DNA from: Xiphias gladius
Lineage: Eukaryota; Chordata; Actinopteri; Istiophoriformes; Xiphiidae
Length of the DNA: 64,000 nt
Assembly: GCF_016859285.1 (NCBI RefSeq)
Contig: NC_053416.1
Location: 16,262,501-16,326,500, forward strand
Direction of reading: 5' to 3'
Positions 13,001 through 62,584 of the stretch are shown here, one piece after another. How positions within the stretch are numbered: position 1 is the stretch's first letter; every line of letters starts with the position of its first letter. The position numbers and the translations under genes are program-made. The notes beneath the pieces were generated by a model. That model worked only from the letters and a program-made list of their open reading frames with translations, did not search any database and had not been told where the DNA came from.

Positions 13001-16000
13001 CTCCACTATAATTTTAAGTCAAATCGCAATTTGGAAACAGCTTTGGTACAGTGTTTGGTTTCTGTGTTTCTGTATGCCACTGACTAACTGGTTAAATTCA
13101 CTGATCCTAAGATTCAACCAGTATTGACTGGCCAAAATTATACTGGTACCAGACACACACAATGAGTGACTGTTTGCTCTCAGAGCTCTGCTGGAGAAGT
13201 TCAGGCTAGCCTTACATGTCTTACAGTTTACAGACGGTGTCATAGTTACAGACGCACTGGTGCAGTATTCACAAAGGATCTTATCTTACCACTGGGAGTC
13301 CTCAGAACTATTCACAGAGCTGCTGAGATGAGTTTTCAGTAACGAACAAAGAGAATTGCTAAGCTAAAAGACTGGAGTAGATTGACCTCCTCATTATGTT
13401 CTCAGTGGTTGGTGTTGGACAGGTCTGACTGATCTGTGTCAGTGAACAGGAGCATGCAGAACAAATGAAATAATATATTTAGATGAACAGAAGGACAGAC
13501 AGAAAGCTTCCAAAAAAAAAAAAACTTTTACAGAAACCTCTCACACCACTCTTGCAGTATGCCGTCCGGCTTGAGTGCGTCTGGTGAAGGTTTGATAGTG
13601 TGACGCAGAAGCAATGTATTTAGCCATATTTAGGTGAAAGTAAGACTGTTGGGTACATACAGAGAACGTAAAGAGTGATGCAGTGGATGTATTGATTCTT
13701 CCCACTGTGAGTTCTTTGCAAAGGAAGAAACAACAAACCTTTTACAACTATCTTCAGGACAACAGGGTGTGAGTTTTTGAAAATGTGATTTTGGGTGATG
13801 TATCAGTTTAGTAAAATTAAATGTTCTAATCACTTTATGGGTTTGCATCCATCTCTTCATCTTCACTTCATTTTTCAGGCTTGTTATTCTGCGTGTGCAC
13901 TCCCATGGGTTGGTCACCATTGATCTGCAGTGTTACGAAGAGGACAACATTGCACAACTAGACAATGTATGTGATTTTAAAAAAAAATACACAACACTTT
14001 TTTTGCGTTACCTAAAAAAAACTAAACCAAACCAAACCCAAACTAAAGCATGCAAATATGTCCTGTGATGTAATGTTATTACAACTTGGTAACTATACAC
14101 AAAAGCACAACTTATATAGGATTACCTGGAAACATAAAATGAGGCCCACTGTCTAACATTACTGCCTTCACATGTTGTCTACTTGCCTCCAGTACCCAAC
14201 CACAATCTTTCCCTCAGACAGATATTTGGCAATCCTCTCGAAATACAACTGTGCCCTTCATTGCTATTGAATAGCAAGTTGATACACGCAGAGAACAGTA
14301 AACGATACAAACGGTAGCTGCTGCATTGTTCACTGCCAGTGTGTTTAGGCATTGGCTACAAGTATCCCACTAGTTGACGAAAATTGTTGTGCACTTAAGC
14401 TTTTATGGTGACCCGAGTATTTTCTTCGCAGCTTTTAAATGCACTGGAAACGAAGCTAAAGGTTCTCCTAAATGGCAATATCACAAGAATTAAAAGGTAA
14501 GTATCTGGAGGTTTGTGGCTTTGCTCATGTAGTAGAAAGGTGATCACTGTATTTCATTTCATTGATTAATTGTACTCCCCCCCCCCAAAGGCTCCCTGCT
14601 CTCGTGCGAGGGGCAAAAGTTGACCGATACTGGCCCACAGCTGACGGCCGACTGATTGAGTATGACATTGACCGAGTGGTGTACGAAGAAGATTCTGCAT
14701 ACCAAAACATAAAAATATTGCACTCACAGCAGTTTGGAAATATCCTAGTACTCAATGGAGATGTTAGTAAGTGTATACAACACTACAATACATGGCTTAT
14801 ATGTCATTTTGAGACACAAGATACGGTCAGTTTAGCCCCATCAACTGAAAATAATGTTTTTTTAAGTACACTCTTAACAGGGTGTTAAAAGTGTAATAAT
14901 GTTCTTGATTATACTTTCCTCAGTAAATTTAATGGTGATTATTTTGTTAGTTTCTATTATATATAAGTGTGTAAATTAATCATTTACCCTACAGACCTGG
15001 CAGAGAGTGATTTGGCCTACACCCAAGCCATCATAGGTAGCGGAAAGGAGAATTATGCTGGAAAAGAGGTGCTGATATTAGGAGGAGGTGATGGAGGCAT
15101 CCTCGCTGAGGTGGTCAAACAAAAGCCAAAGATGATCACCATGGTGGAGATATCCTTTATGGGTTCTATTCTGCTGAAATTTGTCTTTTTTTAATCCCAG
15201 TATTGTGACTTTAACTTTACCTTTAGGCAATTTAGTTATCCCTCACAGTGTTATATTAATATGCATAATTGTACATCCGCATCTGATTGATCCTTCCTTA
15301 ACAAAGTGTGTACATTGACCAGAAGGTGATAGATGGGTGCAAAACGCACATGAGAAAAACCTGCGGCAATATCCTTGACAACCTGAAGGGAGATTGTTAC
15401 CAAGTGAGTGCTGAATAAATATACAGCGACGAGTGGGGAGAATTAACAGTGTGTGGATCACTTTTTAAAGACAACAGGGGGCGTGGTTGTTAATCAGAGC
15501 TACAGTGATGGAATAAGAGTGTGAAAGCATCGACACAAGCGGAAGTGAAAGAATTTTCACCCTATTAAAAGGCAGCGATAAATCATCTTTATGTCTTTTG
15601 TGTCTTATACTCTCCCTCTGGTTTTAAAAACCGGAGTGAACACATGGAAAACCCGGAACAGCAAAATGATTCTATGATCTATAAAAAAAACAACTTTGCT
15701 CCTTAATATTTGTCACTTTATCAGACCTGGTCCTCTGAAGTTAACATGCTCCAGAGAAGATTCAGCATAGTTTACCACGGTGATTTACCCTGGTTAAAAG
15801 TGAGCCAGCTTCGTGATTCGTGGGTTAATCCAAAAGATAGATGGATAATAATCTTGCTGGTGGAGGGCCGCCTCCAAAACATACTTTGTCTCTGATTGTG
15901 CCAAAGAACTGAAAGATTTGTCGATTTAGATTGGAAACGAGCAAGATAAATGTGCATGTTTAATATTATTGTATAGAGCATATGTGAAAATGTATGTATT

Positions 16001-18283
16001 AACCATATTTTCCAAATGAAAGAAACTTAACAAGACAGTTGAGTGGATTCTCCTTGTCTCATGCATTACAGATACTAGTTGAGGACTGTGTCCCTGTGCT
16101 GAAGAAGTATGTCCAGGAGGGACGGACGTTTGATTACGTGATTAATGACCTCACTGCAGTCCCAATATCCACAGAGCCAGAAGAAGGTTTCTGTATTTTA
16201 CCTATGTACACACGCACACACATACACACACACACACACACACATATACTGTATATATATGTGTGTACAGGGTACTGTATTTTACTGTCGTTTTTGCACA
16301 CTTTATTATGTTGCAGATTAAATTTTTAATGGATTCTTTTGCTCAACAATCTACACTCCATAATCCATTATGACAAACTGAAAATATGTTTTTCGAATTT
16401 TTGCAACTTTATTAAAAATCAAAATCTCTCACTTACAAGAGTATTCCCTTAGTTCAGTACTTTTTTTCATTAATTCAAGTCTGTACAAGCTTTGCACACC
16501 TGCATTTGGGCAGTTTTCCCATTCTTCTTGGCAGATCCATCACACTGGATAGAAAGCGTCCGTGAACTGCCATCTTCAGGCCAGATGTTCTATGGGTTTT
16601 AAGTCCAGGCTTTGGCTGGGTCACTGAAGGACAGTAAGAGACTTGTACCGAAGCCACACCAGTGTTTTCTTGGATGTATGTTTCCGGTCATTGTTGTGCT
16701 GAGAGTTGAACCGACCCCCAAGCCTCAGGTAGCGTGAACTCTGGAGCAGTAATAACTTGGAGTGCGACAGAAAGGGACTGAATACTTTTGTAAATAAGAG
16801 ATTTCAGTTTTTGACTTTTAATAAAGTGGCAAACATTTCTAAAAACATGTTTTCACTTTGTCATTATGGGTTACTGAGTGTGGATTGATGGGCAAAAATG
16901 GCAATTCTATCCAAGCCACTGTATGTATGCATAATCTAAGGTATTGGATAAATGCAGCACAAAGATGTTGTTGTTCAACCTATTTCTGAACCTGTCTTGA
17001 CTGGTTTTTGTAGACTCAACATGGGAGTTCCTGCGTCTCATCTTAGATCTGTCAATTAAAGTTCTGCACCCTACCGGGAAATATTTCACACAGGTGAGTC
17101 TTGTCCTTTAATAACTGCTAAGTATGTCTTGTGTAAACTGTTGGTATTGGTACTGTTAATATATCAATACACGTAGTTGTTCAGTGGGCATTAACTGAGA
17201 GGAATCAGAGGGCAGATAGAGATGCTTTTTAACTTTTTCCCTCCATTCCCCCTTACCTATTTTTACTGAAAACGTTTGCATCTTCTGGAGTACCTTACTT
17301 TGTTTGATATATTTCCTGCTGAAAGAGGCTATTTGGGCAGTAAATATTGCAAGGAGAGAACACAGCACAGTTAAACCAGTTGTATATCAGTCAAGGAGAG
17401 AACTGCAGTGCTATTTGATGAGAGAGATGAAATTGCTTCCTTGCTCTAAGCTTTATGGTCAGCGTTTTAATATAAAGTTTAGTTTTAAACTGTCAAACTG
17501 GAATATCTTACGGAATGGGAAATCAAGAAGGGGAAAGCCTCTTAATTTTATTGTGGCTAAGCACTGGAACACACCACTTCCACTTATAACCCTCCAGCTA
17601 TGGTTGAAAAAAGGAAAAGAAACTTATTAGCTACAGTATGTGTGTCTCATGACTTTTTATTTTTTTTTCCTGACACTGGTGATCAGGGTAACAGCGTGAA
17701 TCTGACAGAGGCACTGAGTCTGTATGAAGAACAGCTGGGAAAGCTTTCATGTCCTGTGGGCTTCTCCAAAGAGGTGGTGTGTGTGCCCTCCTACTTGGAG
17801 CTGTATCCTTTCATCAGTTCTAAGATTTTTGATATGCTAATGTTGTAATTCACAAACCAACCACAGTGATTGAATTTATTTACAACCCTAAAAATGTTTT
17901 CTATTATAATGTTTTACTGTCTTATTACTGTTTGGATCTTATTCTTGTAGATTTGGGTCTTATTTATGTTGGTAATAATAACCATGTGCTCACAAAGTTA
18001 ATTTCTTTTTCTTTTTTCTTTTTCACATAACCTGGACCCTTCATTTTTTTCACCCTGCCAGGTTTTGTTGCAACAATGTTCTAATTTTAGAAATGACTTT
18101 GTTGAGCACAGATATGATGGACAAAACTACAAGACCCAAGTTGAGATAAATTGAAATGATCCTTTCCCACATTCCCAAACGGGGACAAAGCCATACTGTA
18201 CATTTTTGCTTTCATATTTTGTTGTGTACAATCCTTAATTGTACTGTGTCAGATGGGTTTTCTACACCATATGGAAAAAGTAA
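10061..18283 (+). CDS. sms: Spermine synthase
   Basis: Cytosolic aminopropyltransferase converting spermidine plus decarboxylated S-adenosylmethionine to spermine and methylthioadenosine. Eleven exons: 10061-10106, 11636-11756, 13879-13966, 14432-14496, 14591-14766, 14995-15149, 15314-15403, 16072-16186, 17014-17093, 17687-17802, 18253-18283; 1083 nt, 360 aa (human 366). The start GCCATGGC is a strong Kozak site. N-terminal part (exons 1-4) is the AdoMet-decarboxylase-like dimerisation domain; exon 5 gives [16 protein letters not shown]; exon 6 the nucleotide-binding loop [16 protein letters not shown]; exon 7 [10 protein letters not shown]; exon 8 the catalytic-site block [14 protein letters not shown]; exons 10-11 the closing [13 protein letters not shown] and WVFYTIWKK. 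Two introns (after exons 6 and 10) are U12-type. Identity rests on near-continuous match to human SMS from memory; very sure. Confidence 0.97.
10203..10329 (-). repeat. 127-bp repeat, copy 2 (inverted)
   Basis: Reverse-complement partner of 5710-5836. It sits in sms intron 1, about 100 bases after the end of exon 1. Confidence 0.85.
10690..11577. mobile_element. hAT-like MITE in sms intron 1
   Basis: The right end reads GAGTACTTCTTCCACCACTG and the left end reads GATGGAAGAAGTATTCAG, an imperfect inverted repeat. The CAGTGGTGGAAGAA terminus is shared with the element at 27630-28229. No transposase frame is visible. The left boundary is approximate. Confidence 0.45.
11757..13878 (+). other. 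sms intron 2
   Basis: A 2.1-kb intron. I see nothing recognisable in it beyond short A/T runs; its open frames are short and resemble no known family. Confidence 0.7.
15150..15313 (+). other. U12-type AT-AC intron in sms
   Basis: The intron begins ATATCCTTT, the exact minor-spliceosome donor, holds the branch site TTCCTTAAC at 15294-15302 and ends in GTAC, 11 bases after the branch site. Removing it joins MVE to [10 protein letters not shown], as in spermine synthases. Neither GT-AG alternative restores that reading. Its length is 164 nt. Confidence 0.95.
16208..16244. repeat. (CA)n microsatellite
   Basis: About 18 near-perfect CA units in sms intron 8, followed by a short alternating TA/TG tract. 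Confidence 0.9.
16340..16900 (-). mobile_element. Tc1/mariner relic, deleted transposase
   Basis: The two ends are long inverted repeats. The left end holds CAATCTACACTCCATAATCC and ATTATGACAAACTGAAAA; the right end holds the complement of CATAATGACAAAGTGAAAAC. Between them the - strand still reads the C-terminal third of a Tc1 transposase: HNDRKHT (the DNDPKHT block), then, after a stop, PSQSLDLKP and [13 protein letters not shown] (the EEWxKLPxxRCxKLV tail). The N-terminal two thirds are gone and stops and frame changes are present, so it is dead. It sits in sms intron 8. Confidence 0.85.
17803..18252 (+). other. U12-type GT-AG intron in sms
   Basis: The donor is GTATCCTTT (17803-17811), the U12 consensus of the GT-AG subtype. 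A branch-like TCCTTAAT at 18232-18239 sits about 13 bases before the acceptor CAG that ends at 18252. Splicing joins PSYLEL to WVFYTIWKK. The branch site departs from TTCCTTAAC at its first and last bases. Confidence 0.88.
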
Positions 18284-22112: not shown

Positions 22113-25100
22113 TCAGAGTGCTTGTTGGTTTCTGTATTGCCTGTTGATCTCGTTGAGGATCACATCCATCCCGGGGTCTTCATCAGCTGTGATTGCTCTG
22201 TCGTCAAATGGGCTACCTATAACAGGACTACTGTCAGTATTTCTCATAAATACAAGTTGTGGCGAACGATATAATAACCTAATGCACATAATCTCATAAA
22301 TGAGACCAAACATATGTCCAATCAAGGTAACAATAGAAATATTCTAAGAGCTGCAGCAAGAGATAAAACTTGTTTTTACATAGTTGGGCAGGTGGAGTAA
22401 AGTCCTGCTACTAAGGCCTACAAAAAACTTGTATTAAGTGTCTGAACTAGTAGTCTAATTGTCAAAATTTGTCATGAGTGACTAAACATCTCACAGTCAG
22501 GTGGCTGTAACATAAAAAGCTTAGAGTGTCTTCACTTACTAATGCCATTAATCTGCTCTGAAGAGTCGCCGACAAGAAAAGTCGAGGAGCTAGATGAGTT
22601 GTTGGACTGGGACGACTTTGAGGAATGAAGAGATGTTAGTCTGGTCACTGACGACTTCTTCACAGTCTTCTGTGTTGCAGTGCAACTCCATTCTGGGAAA
22701 AGATGAAGGTGAAATGTGACATAATCATCCAGAGTTTGATGTTTGATTAACTACCATCATCATGCCTCTAATGGACTTGAATCTTTAACTTTGGAGGAAC
22801 AGATGTCCACATTCAGAGGAATCAGAAACCAAATAGAGCGGAACAGGAGTGTCGGAAATGTAAAGGTTAGACTAGCAGGACTGGTAGAGCTGTGAAATGG
22901 GAAGTGAACATATCTAACCCGAGTTCTCTGCTAGTCTCATTCTGCCGCAGCACAGGTAGATCCTCCATTGCCTCCTCACATTATCCTTCACTAGACAGTG
23001 GAACACAAATATAAAGAAACCTACAAAACAGAAACAGCACTTTTTAAATGCCGCACCAAACCTTTTACAGTGTGGAGCACAATGTCATCAGTTTGGACAT
23101 ACAGGTACAGGACATAGACATGGACATGAAAAAAACTTTAACTTGAAAGTAAGAGTCCCCTGTATAATGCCTGCACAGTTTGTCTGAGTTTGTCGTATTA
23201 AATCATTTTACAGTTGTCTTTCATTTAGGGGTGTGTTAGATGTCTATATATATATATATTTTATATTTTCTTTTTTTTACTGAAAACTTTCAAAGTGCTT
23301 AATGGAAGTCCTGTTTTATTGTGGACTGGTGCTGCTACCACACAACTTTACTTGAACACTTTGTAAGTGGGAGTGCACTTGCATGAGTTGCTTAAATTTT
23401 TGGTCAACTTTCTCATCACATTTTTTGTCATTCCTATCTGTAATTATAACCTTGTACCCATTAAATTGATTGCTGAAATTAGGGAATGAGATGATGTTTA
23501 CAGGTGGTTCAGTGGTTCAGATAATTAGATAATCTGGCTAAAAATGTCGGCATGTCTACAACCCGTCTGATTGGGATTCTTGCCCTGTCCGAATTCGTTG
23601 TAGTGATGTTGCCACATTCCCACATCAGCGACTGGTAAATACAATGTTAACATAAGCGATTCTAATGATGTCCAAAACTATACACTAATAATCCCTGAGT
23701 TAAAACCTGACCCAGTTTGGGTCAGTGTAGCACAGATGCCAATACTGGGCTAATTTTACCCAATATTAATGGTGCTATTATTATAGTTATTATTATTTTT
23801 TATATTACTGTTGGGTTATTTACCGAACCTAAAACATAATTATTTGAGCCTGTGTTACGCCAGAACAACCTTTCTTTTTCGCTGGTTTTCTACCCATGGG
23901 TCCCAGGTAAGGTTGGTGCTACAGTATATTGATGCAAACAGTTTTTGCCCACTGATTTTAATGTGTAAAAATAAAACACCCATTTTGTAGAACAGTCAGA
24001 TCTTCCTCCTACTGCTATGGAGTCCCCATGATTACAGAAATGCCCTTATGACCTTACCCAGGTTTTATTGGACCCACTATTATGTGGAAATTCAGACCCA
24101 AATGAGTGAACTCACCTTGCAAGGAATTAAAGATGGCAAAGAGGTACATAAATGGCAGGTTAACGGGCCCCCATGCGAAAAAGGCAAAGCCCCAAGTGAG
24201 GCCCAGGAGGATGGTTATCCCCGCCACACTGCGCACATCCTGCAGTGTGGTGCGGTGCCGCACATTGTGAGGGTTCTGCCTCTTTATCCGACACAGCTGG
24301 ACCAACACCACAATGAACATGATGAGGTTGAGGAGAAAAATGACGCAGAAATAGGCCACCACAGCCACATAGAAGGCAATGTCGTTTTTCAGCCAGCAGC
24401 TTCGGGAGAGGACAAGAATGGGATATAATTTAAGGGTTAGTTTTTTGTTTTGTGTTAGTTTTATTTCATGTATCTTGGTGTTTGTGGAGTATTTTTAGTT
24501 CATGTAGAATAATGTGCATATAACTGCAAATAAGGCATCTAAGTAAAAACTCACAAGTCATCACTAGTGCCCTCAGTAAACTTCCCATAGGAGATAAGAC
24601 CGTAATTATCCTTGTCAATCGCAATGACTACAATGACCACAATCATCGGGATGCCCCAGCCGGCCAGTGAGAACTTCAGCATGTAGCGTGATATGTAGCT
24701 GTTAAAGACTTTCACGAGGGCCAGGTACATGTGAACCGCCTCAAGTCCCATCCAGGTGAAGGAAACCAGTAGGAAGTAGTGGAGGAACCAGGCAGTGGAG
24801 ATGCAGAGGCCCACAGTGTCTGGGTAGAGTGCCAGCCAAGCATCCACCAGGAAGACCAGGTTCAGGAGCAACAGAGCCAGGCAGAGCTGGATCAGGATTT
24901 TGGATGGAATGTCCTTACGCAACTTCCTGCATGGTTCAAATGGTTTAGACAACTTGAAACATCTCACTGGACTCCTCTCAGTGAATGATGCGTTAATCAT
25001 AAAAGGTGCTGTGAGAAAAAATCTGCATATTTCTAGTTTTTGTGAATTTTGCACATTCTTTCATTTTTAACCATAATCGAGTTTTATTAAAAAATATTAT

Positions 25101-45263: not shown

Positions 45264-48200
45264 GCCTAATAATCTATTGACTTTTTGAATTAAACTGGTG
45301 ATATATTTAAGTGCTGAAACTCGCTTTTGCAATTTTGCAGTATTTTCCCAAAATCCTCCAAAAGTTTAAAAAGAAAAATAAATATTCTACATCAATAAAA
45401 GGGATGCTTGGGTTTCAGAGATTTTTAGTAAATATTTAATGCAGGAATTAACATAATTCTCTAGAGACTACACTGGATATCCTATCAGGCATTCGCAAGC
45501 AGCAAGGCCCCACTGTAGTTTGATACTCACAGCTCTCCAGCTCCAGAGAGCAATTCTGTGTGTCCAGAGGGAAACTACTGAAGTCCATTGAGCAAAGTGC
45601 GGTCACGGTGATCCTAAAACACAGCTTACAGTTAACACAACGCCCACATAAATCAAGCAGTCATTCAACATCGGCAGTTGTGTTCACTGGAAATGTTATA
45701 TTTGCATTGATGGGTGACTTTCAGAGTATAGCTGCGTAGGGATGACTATGGGGATGACACTATATTGTCGACATCTGTGGGTGAAATGGATATGATAAAT
45801 GTAATTCTGAAAGCTTACAGGCCATCTTGTCATATTCCCTTCAGGCTCTGCTCACTAAACCCTGCTGTAACCTGTCTTGACGGACGTCCTTTTCGAAGCT
45901 TTTTAATTTTTAATAATATTTAAATTATGACTCATTGAATTAGATTCAAAACCATACGTCAGTCTAAAGCAAGACTATGTAACCTTTGAAAGTAGAACTG
46001 ACAACCAGAACTGAATTCATATGCAACAAAACACACCCCCTGTTCATGTCAATACACCCAGGGGTTTTGTTGCTACAGTTGTACCTGGTTCAGTATTAAC
46101 GGTAGCTTGTGGTGGCCAGTGTCTGCAAACTTTAGCTGTAGATGCTGTGCGACTGACATGGATGAGTAAATTTGCTGACTTTGCTGCTCCTCTCCACATT
46201 TGCTCATGTCACACTAGATTTTAAAATGTCACAGATAAACCAAAGGACATCTTTAAAGCAACTGCCTAAAGAAGAATTCAATGTGCCATGAATCTGAAGC
46301 CAGCTTTCCAAATCTAGCACAAATTTTGAAAATAGAGAAAATCAAATAATAATACATTAATTTTCACACCTCAGTGGAGTATAAAACCATTTTTGAGATA
46401 TTTCACCTTTTCAAAAAAATGCGTTGAACTGATATTTAAAATGCGAATGGATGGAGACACAGTTTGAAATAGTGGCAACAGTTGCAGCCATTCATTCATC
46501 CGGTCTCACTTTAATCGTTCCTACTTTGATGGTAGTCTCTTTATGAGTATCGTAAGAGAAAACTTTTGCTTTTACCTGACACTGTAGAGGATGTTTCCGT
46601 CAGGATAAACCCTCAGCATGATGTTCTCCATGGTTGTATCATGGATGAAAGAGCGTTTAGAGTGGACAAAGAATACATCAGGAACCCAAATTTTCTTCAC
46701 AAGACGTGCATCGAAGGTACGACTCTTGTTGTTGCTGGAGGGGAAGGCCAGGCGATCATCCTGCCAGTAATGCCTCAGGTACAAAGTCATGGTGAAGTCC
46801 TGGGAAAAAAAAAAAAATGTTGCTCGAGCCCAATATAGAAGAGGAGACACTTTACATTGTCTAACCTCAGAAACACTAGAGGCACATACCATGTTTACTT
46901 CGGATATGCTGTCAATGCTCTCCACCTGGACGTCGATGCCGACAGGAATAGCAGAACCTGCAAAAGGTCAAACGTTGTAATGGATCAGCTTTAAGCAACA
47001 GTTGGATCACATCCTCCATGAATACAGTACATAATCTGCCAGCGATTATGTACTGTATGTGCAAATCCCACTGCTGAGCTATAGAACATAAGCCACATCT
47101 TACAGACAACAGGGACAAAAGGTTGGATGAGAGTGATGACCCTGACATCATGCCGGTTCATAAGCGTGATTCACTCATATCATCTGTCAATAAAAGACGG
47201 TATGGCTACAGCATCACTTCAAGAGTTACACACAACGGACAGAAAGGGGTTAATACACAGCAGTAATTCTCATCTCTTCTACTCTGAGGTTCACTAAGGA
47301 AGCACAGGTAAGATGCTACAAAATCCTTGAGGGGTTCAGAAATATTTGACATTTCAAACCTGTACTCAGCTTTTCATTTTCTGGATGAGCTATATAAGTA
47401 TCGAGACAGTATTATGAGGTTCGTGGCTGCGAACTATTTCAGAGAAACTACATAGATTGAATGCTTTGAGAAGATTACTAATTGTACTGCTGTCAAAATC
47501 TGCAACTGAATCACCTCATTTACATAATTTGACCAACATTTGTGTGACAGCTAACATCAGGGTACAGCTTTAGTGTTGGCAAAACACCAACAAATCCTTT
47601 CAAAATTAGACTTTTGCATACAGGCAAGAGATCCAAAGCTGATTTTGCCGTATTTATGAAATCTGGCCTTTGGGAATAACTGGCTCACTACAACAACCTA
47701 CGTGGATATAACATCCCTTGTGTAACGTAGTCGACATGTCTATGTAGTCTAAGTAGAATGTGGTCTCTATATTCTAATCTATGCAGATGAACAAAACGCT
47801 AATTTGTTTATCAGTTTAGGTTCTTTAACTGCCTGTGTCAGTAAGAGTCTGAAGCTATACCAGCAGGCACCAAGACAAACAATCACTGATGCTGACAATC
47901 CTGTTAGTGGGCATTTTAGTTCATGTGACCCGGAGTAAACCCACAAACACTCTTTACAGAAGGGATCAGAGCCAGGAAAAAAGACAGGCTTTTTGTTGCC
48001 TGTTTCCGGTGTGACAGCGAAAGTGAGGAGCCAGCCCATCACTGAAACACTGCAACAAAGCGGTTCAACTTGTACTGCAAGCATGTAACAATGCTACATT
48101 AAATACAACCACATTGTACTAATACATAAATACCCAATGCTGTGTATAGCATTATGTCATCGTCCACTGGCAGAATACTGTAAACATATGATGTGTACTA

Positions 48201-53378: not shown

Positions 53379-56300
53379 ATGGCAGGCACATGTGGACTCG
53401 CGATTGTGCTTCTAATTTTCTTGGAGAAATTGTTACTGACAGACTCAAAAGGTATTGTAACATATGACTTCTGCTCCTAATATTTGCAGATGAGCAGTTT
53501 GCTCTGGCTAAAGGGAATTTAATAGATGAGATTCATATGAGTTACTGCTGTGTACTATCCACCTACAGTAAGAAAATGCAAATTGACATGGTAAATTACC
53601 TGATTTATTTGGTTTCATTATCATTGGTGAGCTAATTTTAACTTTGCCATATCCAAATATATGATGGCAAAAAAAAGCTGTACTAGGGTTAGAGTAATAC
53701 CTGAGACAACACCTGAATACCAATGTGGGGATGCCATTTTATGCAAATGATGGCATTCTTTGCAAAGATCTGACGGGGGATAAGGTTTTATCCCATTGAA
53801 AAAGCTCTTTATAGTTACAAAATGTGTTCATTTTGGCAAACGGTGTATTGAGTACCTTGAGAGTATGTTAGCGGACAGTATGTATTTCAATGTAACAGTA
53901 CTGTGGTACCATCAATACACTGATTATATCAATTTGTTTGCTTCCTCATGCTTGCAAGGATGAGGCAGGCAGCATGGAAAGCACTGCAATAGTCATAGAG
54001 TAAATTAGAAAAGTTACTGCTCTTTGTCACCTCCGCTTTAAAAGGTGAGCTCATCCACTTAAAAACACTTTATCTGTCCTTTGTCATTCACAATATGTCA
54101 AAAATGATTTTACAGCTCAGTAGTTCATGTATTGTCCCTAGTGTGTTGTCTGTGAGCAGCAGCGTGCGTTGAAGAGTGACAGAAAGCTTTAAAAAATTAC
54201 AGCTGTCCCAAACAACATTAGTTTGTCTTCATATATCCACATGAGAAGCAAACACAGCTGCAGCTGTGTCCTCAGCGCCCTGCACGCTGCACACATCTGG
54301 GGAAAACACTGAGCACACATTAGGGGTGAAGTGTGACTCTGTTGAAAAAAAAATATTCTAGTAAAATGAACAGCTCAAATGTTTATTAGACATCAGTTGA
54401 GCTCTTTTGTCAGAATTTTGCACTTCTCTTCGGCATGGTTTCGCGGTGTAGTGAATTGTCTGAAATGGCCGCCTCAGTGGAAAGGTGAAAAAGTCGATGG
54501 TTATGGTTTGTCGGTTTTACGCTTAATAGTTCCATATGTTAGAGTTGAACGGTTGTTCAGCTAGTTCCGTTGTCTACAGGCTCCTGAAAATTGCAAAGCT
54601 AAAGAAAACCCCATTGATGTGGCTGAGAAAAGTTACACAACAATGCCTGCAAGAATATGTAATTATGAAGGGAATCAAAAGAAATGATGGTAACTTTTCT
54701 TGTTATTGTCATACTGCAAATATTAAACTTAAAAGACCAATTTTGGAACATAAAACTAAAACATGAAATGTTTATGTCTTAAAATATGGCTGTCAAATAG
54801 ACTTGTAAGTTCAGTCTTTACTTACTAATTATATGGAAAGAATATACATTTGATCAAATCAGTATTTGATTTAACTTCCAAAATAATGCTCATGATATTA
54901 TTTTATAAAAGCTTTTTGCAGGAAAACAACAATGAAACTGGGACAGGTGGTCGGATGTACCAATACTTGAATTGTTAAGTTATAATGATCTTGAAAATTG
55001 ACAGTACTTTTACCATCTCAAACTCATATTACCAGATACCAATGTCACCTGTATCATCCATGACGACTGCATCCTGCCCTGTAGCTTCAGACCCACTGGC
55101 ACTGTGGTGATCCACTGGTACAAGCAGCAAATCCCCGTCCACAGCTACTACTACAACAAGGACCAGTTTGGACTCCAGAACAAGCACTTCAGTGGAAGGA
55201 CTTGCTTGTTTAACTCGCAGATCCCTCATGGCAATGCCTCCCTGCTCCTCAGGAGGGTCAAAGTTCAAGACAAGGGCAGGTACAAATGTTACACGAGCAC
55301 AAGAAAGGGCAACCAGGAGATCTTTATCAACCTGGAGGTGAAAGGTCAGTACAATGTTACAGCATGGCACTCAGTATAACTTCTTCTTTGGTTTAAAATG
55401 GATGAATTCAGCACTGATGAGGTTTTGAGCAGTAGAAGCGTCTCCATTCATAAATTACCTTCAAGGTCGTGATAACGAGGTGGAACATTTGGCACTCTTT
55501 CTTTCCACTCCTGCCCAGCAAGCAGACTGGCTTTTTCTTGTGTCTTAATGGCAACCTAAACTGTTAATGGTTAATTGTCATGGTATAATATAGGAATCTA
55601 TTTTGTTTTACACTCGGTTTCTACTTTATTAGATAAACCTAACTTACACTGTTGCAGTATAATACAACAGCATTGCAAAAAAATCAATTTCTATTAACAG
55701 TTTCAGAGAGGCATTGATGTAGTTTGTGTTGCAACTGAGTGTATTTTTAAGGACAGGAAGGACATTTTGGTCGTTACTGGGATGTCCTGGCATGAGGAAG
55801 GGAACTACAATCTCTACCAAATCAGTGGTGATGCAGTAAATAAGAGATTTATAGGATTGTTGTATTTTGGCAGAATTTCCGACAAATCCTTAGTGGAGAC
55901 GAATGCCAATAACATTCACACAAAAAGTGGAGTTTGACTCATGAGCAGGACACTGTGAGGTCCATGTGAAGAAATGTCTCCACTGCAGAGTCTAACAGTC
56001 CAGTTTTCAAAATATAAGCTTATTCCATCAACTGAGTGCTAACACCAAGTCTCGGGATACAGTCTGCACTAGCTTACCTAGCAGCAAGTTAGCTGTCTGC
56101 CCTACTAACCTGCAGTATAGCCAGTGGAGCAGGGCATTAGTGTGCAGCAAAAATGCACCACCTGCAGGAGATTTGTTGAGCTGCTGTGCTAAAGGCCAGC
56201 ACTGCTTCGGAGAATTAATACATTTTAGGTTACAGTAGATGCACTGAGACAGGGTGCGTACTGTAAGACTATGTGTGAGTGACAGAACGGGATGCACAAA

Positions 56301-58626
56301 TCCCACTTCACCTGACTGTTTTTGACGCCATGTTCCCTTCAAAACAAATGAGCATATGAGTGGCAGACTAAGCTGTTTATTTCTGGTTGCCAGTGCCACG
56401 AATTTCATCATATGCCCATTAAATGCTCACCCTGTTGTCTTCTCTGCGTTTCTTCTAGCTCTCATCCAGTCAGTGATCATGGAGATGACTGATGAGATGG
56501 TCACCTGCTCCTCTCACAACATCTACCCCATCCCTCAGGTAACATGGGCTACAGACCCCAGCTCTGCCCAGGGAGCTCTAGAAAATTCAACCATTAAAAC
56601 CACAGACCACAAGGGTCTTTTCACAGTGGAGAGCACCCTGAGGATTCTAGGTAATCTCTTCAACCATACCTACTTCTGCTCTTTCATATCGGCAGACAAG
56701 ACCCAGGTGTGGACTGCCTCTCAGAAAAACCAAGGTGCATTTTGGTTATACAATGATATAGTTTTCATAAAGAGGATGACTTCTGACAAATGAAAAGCAA
56801 CAGAGTTGTGTGTAAACTATTTTTCAGAGGATATGACCCAGGAAGAGGGTCATGCACTGTCCATCCCATGCATCGCTCCGCACAGTCTCCAGAATTTCTC
56901 CCTCACCTGGACCTTCACCCTGTCCAGTGAGCCCACAGTTATCTTGAGATATGACAGCAGAACCAGACACATTTTCAACCTGTGGGAGGACCAAGCTGAA
57001 CTGGACCAGGACCTGCTTATGCTGGGAGATGGATCTCTTCTGCTTCACAAACCAGACAGCGAAGAACACTCTGGGAAATATACCTGCACGTTCTCAGGCC
57101 TGCAAAGCAGACACACTGTTCAAACCAAAGTAAACATCACTGTAGCATCAATAAGTGAGTATTAGATTGATCTGTTTCTGGGGAGATGTAATCTCTGTAA
57201 ATAAATGCTGGAAGGAAAATAGGAGTAGTTCACAAAAAAAAAAAAGTGCCATGTTTGCTCTGCAGGTGTGGATGAGCAGAATGTGCAGAGGTCATGGTGG
57301 AGCACTGCAGCTTCTGCGGCCTTTGTTTTGTTCACCATCATTGTAACTCTCCCTCAGTGTGTAAGGCAAAGAGGTATGTGAGATAATCAGTCTGTATCAA
57401 ACCTTTTAAAAGCAAGTAAAACTTCCATGTACAAGTTGCAGCTGTGAGACAGAATTCCATGACTCAAAGCTGTAAAATAATTCTTTGAATTTAGCAGTGC
57501 TGTCTGCTGTTATTTTATGGTCATACGAATTAGAAAGCATTTGGAGAGCGCAAATCCCCATCACTGCCAAAGTTGCACTATAATCGGTCTGCATTTTTAA
57601 TGGTTCAGCTCAGTGAAACAGCATCTGGATCTGCATCTGGATCCAGATGTGCATCAATATATGCATTAGTGATAGACAGTCGTGCTGATTTATGGAGGAT
57701 GGGACTTGGTGTTTCCCAAGAAAGAACTGTAATATTTGAAGTCAGTCAGACTCATGAACAGTTGAATCATTTTCAAAGGCAAAATGCGTTAAGATTTTGC
57801 AGGATGGTTTGTAACTTTTTTGGCAACTGCACAATGTATTCAAGAATTATAGACTATGTTCAGAATAGCAGGAATTCAGAGTGGTGAAAGGGAATTGCAA
57901 AAAACTTAAATGGTTACTTATTTAGTTTTTTAAAACTTATTTAGTTGGAAATCCAGGAAGAGTCAAAAGTGGAGCAGTTAAGTGCTTTATTAAATGACCA
58001 CAGGGGGGCACTGTCCATAGCAGAAACTAATCCATTCATTAGGCCCATGGTCAAACTTTCCTCCAAATTTCACTGAAAACTAAATCAGTATTGAGATATC
58101 CTACTAACTAAGAGACAAAGAAATTGAACCAAAAATAGTGGAGGTAATAATAATGCAAATTCAGTTGCACAAACTGGCTTCAGTATTGACAGATCAAAAA
58201 ATTAATAAAAGTATAACCAATATCATGTGCAAAATCTCTGTGTCTCTTTCTCTTAGCTATTGAAAAAACTGTTGAATGATTCTTTTTTGTGTGTGTGTGT
58301 TTTTTTTCCTTACTGGTACAGCAATGGATACCAGGACAGCTTCACATAGGTACAACGGAGCAGGACTTGTTGAAGGTGGACTTGACAAAGCTCTAAACAC
58401 CACAGCTTCATCCATAATCGTACAACATGGAGTTGAATGCAACAGGCTACAGCTACAGTTTGAAGCACAGGATGAAACGGCAGGCAGTTCGCCAAAAACA
58501 GCAGAAAACTTTACTGTGGCTTTACTACCAGATACTAAAGTAGAGCAAGAAGAAACACCAGAAGGGCCACCTGTGGGAGGAAATGATGGGCTGCAATCCA
58601 ATAGTCTGGAGAGGGATGGATTTTGA
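53379..58626 (+). CDS. hhla2: B7-family ligand HHLA2 (B7-H7)
   Basis: Single-pass immune ligand on antigen-presenting cells; in people it binds TMIGD2 (activating) and KIR3DL3 (inhibitory). Six exons: 53379-53451 (signal peptide, core LAIVLLIFLEKLLL), 55036-55344 (Ig V), 56459-56734 (Ig C), 56828-57154 (second Ig V), 57266-57373 (stalk and membrane helix FVLFTIIVTLPQCV), 58322-58626 (cytoplasmic tail). Total 1398 nt, 465 aa. V domain 1 shows CILPCSF, VVIHWYKQQIPVHSYY, NGN-type HGNASLLLRRV and DKGRYKCYTS, which align with HHLA2 from memory. C domain: VTCSSHNIYPIPQVTW and YFCSF. V domain 2: LSIPCIAP and HSGKYTCTFSG. The V-C-V order is typical of HHLA2. The tail of about 105 aa is long and has a single tyrosine. 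Human HHLA2 and GABRR3 are both on 3q11-q13, supporting the call. Confidence 0.9.
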
Positions 58627-61808: not shown

Positions 61809-62584
61809 TGCATGACAGCCAACAGTGGCTATCAGCAAGTCTTCAAACTGTTGATTACAACCCCACGTGTGTTTGTGTGTACAGTGTGTGTACACATGTA
61901 TGTGAGTGAAGGAATTTTAGAGCTGAAATAACTAGTAACTAATCGATCAATTAAACGCTGAAGTCATTTCACCCCCTTCTCTAATGTGATATTTGCTGCT
62001 TATCTGTGTTTTCATATGTTGGGTTTTGGATTATTGGTTGGACAAAACAAGACGTTTTGAAGACATCACCTTTGGCATTGGGAAAATGGGACAGGCCTCT
62101 TTCACTATTTTCTGACGTTTTACAGACCAAACGATTAATCGAGAAAGTAATAGAGATAGAGATAATCGTGAGGTGCAACCCCAATTGATTCTCCTAATTC
62201 CCTGTCGGAATTTGTTCTTTTCAAGTAACTAGACACTGGGTTTGTCTGGAGAATGAGTGAGGCTTGTAAGGCAACGACAGTTTGAGCCTTATGCAAAGTG
62301 AAAAATATTTGTCTGCTCAGAGTTAACACACATTAGACGAAAGCCAACTTATCAGTGGCCATTCCTCAAACTGTTTACATCTCCCTTATGATCTACACTA
62401 CTCTTCCAGCCTGTAATCAGTAAAAACTCTTGCTCCTCACATGAAACCCCCCCCCTTCCTTCAGGAGATCTGGAAAATGAACTCATGCTGATTGATTGTG
62501 TGACTGTGTAAAAGGATACCCTACTTCCTGTAGGCCCTAACTCCAGACAGCAGGACCAGAAAATCTTGGATCAGACATCTTTCT

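Follow-up and report, generated by a model that had tools for sequence, protein, structure and literature searches.

Two U12-type introns, one AT-AC and one GT-AG, predicted in the spermine synthase gene of the swordfish

The 64-kb stretch of Xiphias gladius DNA analysed here (the window, at its full length) carries a complete spermine synthase gene, sms, on its + strand, whose exons join into one open frame (Table 1). The identity of the gene was established both by similarity over its full length and by the presence of SMS domains: a phmmer comparison aligned the product with the human SMS structure 3c6k over residues 3-360 (E 2.7e-178), and the Pfam domains Spermine_synth, SpmSyn_N and Spermine_synt_N all scored over their cut-offs. 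A single gap of 2 residues is found in the alignment to 3c6k, far upstream of the junctions left by introns 6 and 10, and the human protein is matched without gaps across both of them.

Other features of the window can be described more briefly. Downstream of sms, on the opposite strand, there are exons of a secretin-family 7TM receptor (24054-25060, -), an exon at 46575-46967 (-) encodes a neurotransmitter-gated ion-channel ligand-binding domain, and 55002-57162 (+) holds exons for a protein of the immunoglobulin superfamily that has V-set and C2-set domains. The names of these neighbours come from 19 of the 267 open frames, chosen by eye, which makes the annotation of the window a partial one. 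No RNA genes over the Rfam cut-off were found in the 64 kb. Within sms itself, intron 8 contains inverted arms of 39 nt at 16389-16844 (+), 82% complementary and 378 nt apart, within a stretch resembling a putative remnant of a small DNA transposon; the donor of this same intron, GTTTCTGTA at 16187-16195 (+), reads as a weak U2 site (6/9) and not as a U12 site (5/9).

Table 1. Coordinates of the sms gene in the window and of the elements assigned to its two candidate U12-type introns
Feature	Position	Strand	Basis
sms coding span, 11 exons, 360 aa	10061..18283	+	joined exons, phmmer, Pfam
sms exon 6, encodes the Asp of GGGDGG (residue 198 = human D201) and closes with ...MITMVE	14995..15149	+	
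Intron 6, U12-type AT-AC (predicted), 164 nt, phase 0	15150..15313	+	frame, motifs, shift test
Intron 6 5' splice site ATATCCTTT	15150..15158	+	9/9 to RTATCCTTT
Intron 6 branch site TTCCTTAAC, with 15301 as putative branch A	15294..15302	+	9/9 to TTCCTTRAY
Intron 6 3' terminal AC, 12 nt past the inferred branch A	15312..15313	+	
sms exon 7, directly 3' of intron 6	15314..15403	+	frame, human alignment
sms exon 8, holds the NDLTAVP Asp 273 (= human D276)	16072..16186	+	
sms exon 10, reads up to ...VCVPSYLEL, whose final codon is split	17687..17802	+	frame, human alignment
Intron 10, second U12-type intron (predicted), GT-AG, 450 nt, phase 2	17803..18252	+	donor, branch site, end
Intron 10 branch site ATCCTTAAT	18231..18239	+	8/9 to TTCCTTRAY
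sms exon 11, completes C-terminus and stop	18253..18283	+	frame, human alignment

U12-type introns are known for a 5' splice site with the consensus RTATCCTTT and a branch site with the consensus TTCCTTRAY, and both strings were used here for scoring. A sequence-only reading of the window had proposed that an AT-AC intron of the minor spliceosome at 15150-15313 splits the active-site domain of spermine synthase, that its donor, branch site and terminal AC follow the U12 consensus exactly, and that its removal restores the reading frame. All of this was borne out: the boundaries proved exact, the 164-nt intron is U12-type by those sequence tests that discriminated between the classes, every position of the donor ATATCCTTT and of the branch site TTCCTTAAC agrees with the consensus, the terminal dinucleotides are AT and AC, and the human SMS alignment has no gap near the junction. 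The 12 nt that separate the inferred branch A from the 3' end fall within the range of about 10-16 nt expected for these introns. The pyrimidine content before the intron end did not distinguish intron 6: it amounts to 10 of 12 bases, with 9-12 in the eight introns of the other type, in a 12-base measure that takes in the branch site. Moving the whole intron by +1 or +2 leaves the mRNA identical, and moving it by +3 leaves the protein identical, so that sequenced reads alone could not choose among the first three placements; AT-AC ends occur only at the placement 15150/15313 among these read-equivalent shifts.

In the protein, intron 6 falls between the residues corresponding to human E220 and I221 (217 and 218 in the window), and thereby between the active-site residues D201 and D276. 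The numbering can be followed from the Q of VEIDQ, which is Q223: the Asp of GGGDGG stands 22 residues before it (D201) and that of NDLTAVP 53 residues after it (D276). With one of these residues encoded in exon 6 and the other in exon 8, the earlier description of the intron as splitting the active-site domain is a fair one.

The sequence-only reading had made no mention of a second U12-type intron in the same gene, which bears on what it had said about sms dosage. Intron 10 has the donor GTATCCTTT, which scores 9/9 to the U12 consensus, a branch site one position short of the consensus, a branch A placed 14 nt before the end and a terminal AG, that is, the donor, branch site, spacing and end looked for in a U12-type GT-AG intron. 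Its removal completes the C-terminus, whose counterpart in human SMS is LWVFYTVWKK. When the donors of all ten sms introns are scored in this way, only two of them, those of introns 6 and 10, reach 9/9, and the other eight score between 3 and 5 of 9. The branch score of intron 10 is not distinctive by itself, as intron 4 also shows an 8/9 match, but one that lies 25 nt from the end of its intron. With both introns counted, sms should be expected, from its sequence, to call on the scarce minor spliceosome for two separate splicing events.

Genes for RNAs of that machinery were searched for in the swordfish genome (690.8 Mb, 1298 contigs) under Rfam cut-offs, and matches over the cut-off were obtained for U12 (contig C3, 125 bits), U4atac (contig C13, 98.6 bits) and U6atac (contig C21, 131.4 bits), together with a second, partial U6atac match on contig C1 that stays below its cut-off (32.2 bits against 33). 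Control genomes gave 0/14 matches in each of the U12, U4atac and U6atac searches. In the minor pathway, U11 and U12 recognise the donor and the branch site, and U6atac then replaces U11 at the donor. The guide of the swordfish's own U12 snRNA, GTAAGGAA, can form 8 of 8 pairs with the branch site of intron 6 around a bulged A, and 7 of 8, one of them U-G, with that of intron 10. Likewise, 6 base pairs can form between the AAAGGA of its own U6atac and the TCCTTT of the intron 6 donor, and this RNA can pair over 8 bases with the donor region of intron 10. RNAduplex returned only modest energies for the branch sites (-8.6 and -7.3 kcal/mol) and put the bulged A elsewhere than anticipated, for which reason explicit base pairing was scored instead.

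How often such motifs arise by chance was estimated with 60 first-order Markov simulations of the 64-kb window, covering both strands and with no requirement that a frame be restored. An exact donor followed by an exact branch site and a matching end in range appeared in only 2 rows over all 60 runs, a rate of 0.033 per 64 kb. If one mismatch is allowed on each side, the simulations give a mean of 9.2 rows, and the real window gives 11 on both strands, intron 6 included; relaxed matches are thus roughly as frequent as chance predicts and say nothing, whereas an exact donor with an exact branch site is informative. The scan of the window required TTCCTTAAC with at most 1 mismatch, a tolerance under which intron 10 was not recovered; it was spotted by reading and scored afterwards. 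A further exact GTATCCTTT is found at 62519 on the minus strand, without a paired U12 branch site under the scan rules, and is probably a chance occurrence.

These numbers bear directly on the simplest alternative, namely that the motifs of intron 6 arose fortuitously within a pseudogene or an intron of the ordinary type. The 9.2 relaxed rows per simulated window show that imperfect motif pairs are common by chance, but the exact pair is rare, its position coincides precisely with the junction in the protein, and all 11 exons read through in one unbroken frame; for the exact pair to coincide with that junction by chance would, judging from the sequence, be far less likely still than the simulated rate, and we give this explanation almost no credence. 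A different objection is that an intron with AT-AC ends need not belong to the minor spliceosome, there being a divergent AT-AC subclass whose splicing falls to the major (U2) spliceosome, as put on record in the title of Wu and Krainer 1997, which appears in PMC2831892. Against membership of intron 6 in that subclass speak its donor, which matches the U12 consensus at 9/9 and the U2 consensus at 4/9, and its branch site, at 9/9 and capable of full pairing with the U12 snRNA. Removal by the U2 machinery is consequently very improbable, if slightly less so than the chance match.

Splicing might also make use of other sites, such as an AT-AG intron at 15150-15322, which would keep the frame and delete I-D-Q, or an ordinary GT-AG pair. 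A scan with allowed dinucleotides, taking donors from 15060-15229 and intron ends from 15235-15399, does contain 138 site pairs that keep the frame and are free of stops, 15150-15322 and 19 GT-AG pairs among them, and AT-AN ends are known for minor introns according to PMC8280824. However, the MVEIDQ of human SMS results only from the AT-AC placement and its read-equivalent shifts, and the AG at 15322, with 21 nt between it and the branch A, is farther away than is usual for U12 introns. We rate this option, too, as extremely unlikely. On the sequence we hold it as nearly certain that 15150-15313 is a genuine U12-type AT-AC intron, the sixth of the ten introns of an intact sms gene, and that intron 10 is one of the U12-type GT-AG kind.

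Judged by its sequence, intron 6 is a perfect U12 AT-AC intron and is ordinary in kind. It shares with other introns of this class (A-type) the donor ATATCCTTT, the branch site TTCCTTAAC, the short distance from branch to end and the AC terminus, and differs from them in nothing of substance, its phase 0 being the under-represented phase for U12 introns. Intron 10, for its part, has the GTATCCTTT donor, the TCCTTAAY branch core, the AG end and the phase 2 of U12-type GT-AG introns, from which it departs in having A and not T at the first position of the branch site; its T at -1 agrees with an excess described for U12 introns in PMC7367187. The rarity of the AT-AC subtype had been overstated in the claim that it forms a small minority even among U12 introns, given that Table 2 of PMC7367187 lists shares of 22% in zebrafish and 26% in human. 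The same source gives 12% for each of two pufferfish, the human share is put at about 26% in PMC10639083, and PMC8280824 quotes a figure of 24%.

The presence of two such introns in one gene also has precedents. According to PMC7367187, U12 introns are clustered in the same genes beyond chance, significantly so in 21 of the 21 genomes tested, and in zebrafish PMC9501576 counts 662 U12 introns in 612 genes, from which it follows that at most 50 zebrafish genes have more than one. Compared with genes with clustered U12 introns, sms pairs one intron of each terminal subtype. The two swordfish introns are further examples of a known intron class, and they may well be listed in U12 catalogues already. 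In a search of the main texts of open-licence PubMed Central papers, none was found that joins spermine synthase with a U12-type intron or the minor spliceosome.

From the gene model, removal of intron 6 by the minor spliceosome would place the E that matches human E220 directly before the I-D-Q that starts at human I221. Were the intron retained, translation would run through 14 foreign codons to a stop ahead of exon 7, giving a product without D276, and the mRNA would probably be open to nonsense-mediated decay. Retention of intron 10, the last one, would swap the last 9 residues for 14 different ones and bring in a stop that lies within the intron; as no coding-exon junction would follow that stop, decay should be less likely. 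We infer from this a difference in decay between retention of intron 6 and of intron 10, which stands as a prediction.

The dosage of sms had been said to depend on minor-spliceosome activity. A U12 intron must be removed for the full product to be made, but in taking this removal as the limiting step the claim goes beyond the observations; as a hypothesis, SMS output might be limited by minor splicing. In the zrsr2-mutant zebrafish of PMC9501576, the 218 retained U12 introns were shorter (median 451 vs 1398 bp), and GT-AG and AT-AC introns did not differ in that study. The sms introns, of 164 and 450 nt, would accordingly fall in the sensitive size range. Loss of CENATAC, by contrast, shows a strong bias to A-type introns (PMC8280824). 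By analogy, both the size range and the CENATAC bias would be reasons to test SMS, and not evidence that it responds. A more ambitious reading would have sms output set by minor splicing, with the A-type intron 6 as a switch responsive to U6atac and CENATAC, with a retained intron 10 yielding a product of almost full length whose tail is changed, and with minor-spliceosome disease or stress lowering spermine; we consider this scheme unlikely.

Defects in spermine synthase cause Snyder-Robinson syndrome, as stated in PMC3585406. If weak minor-spliceosome activity led to retention of both introns, disorders of the minor spliceosome could be tied, in a way open to testing, to this metabolic enzyme through polyamine balance.
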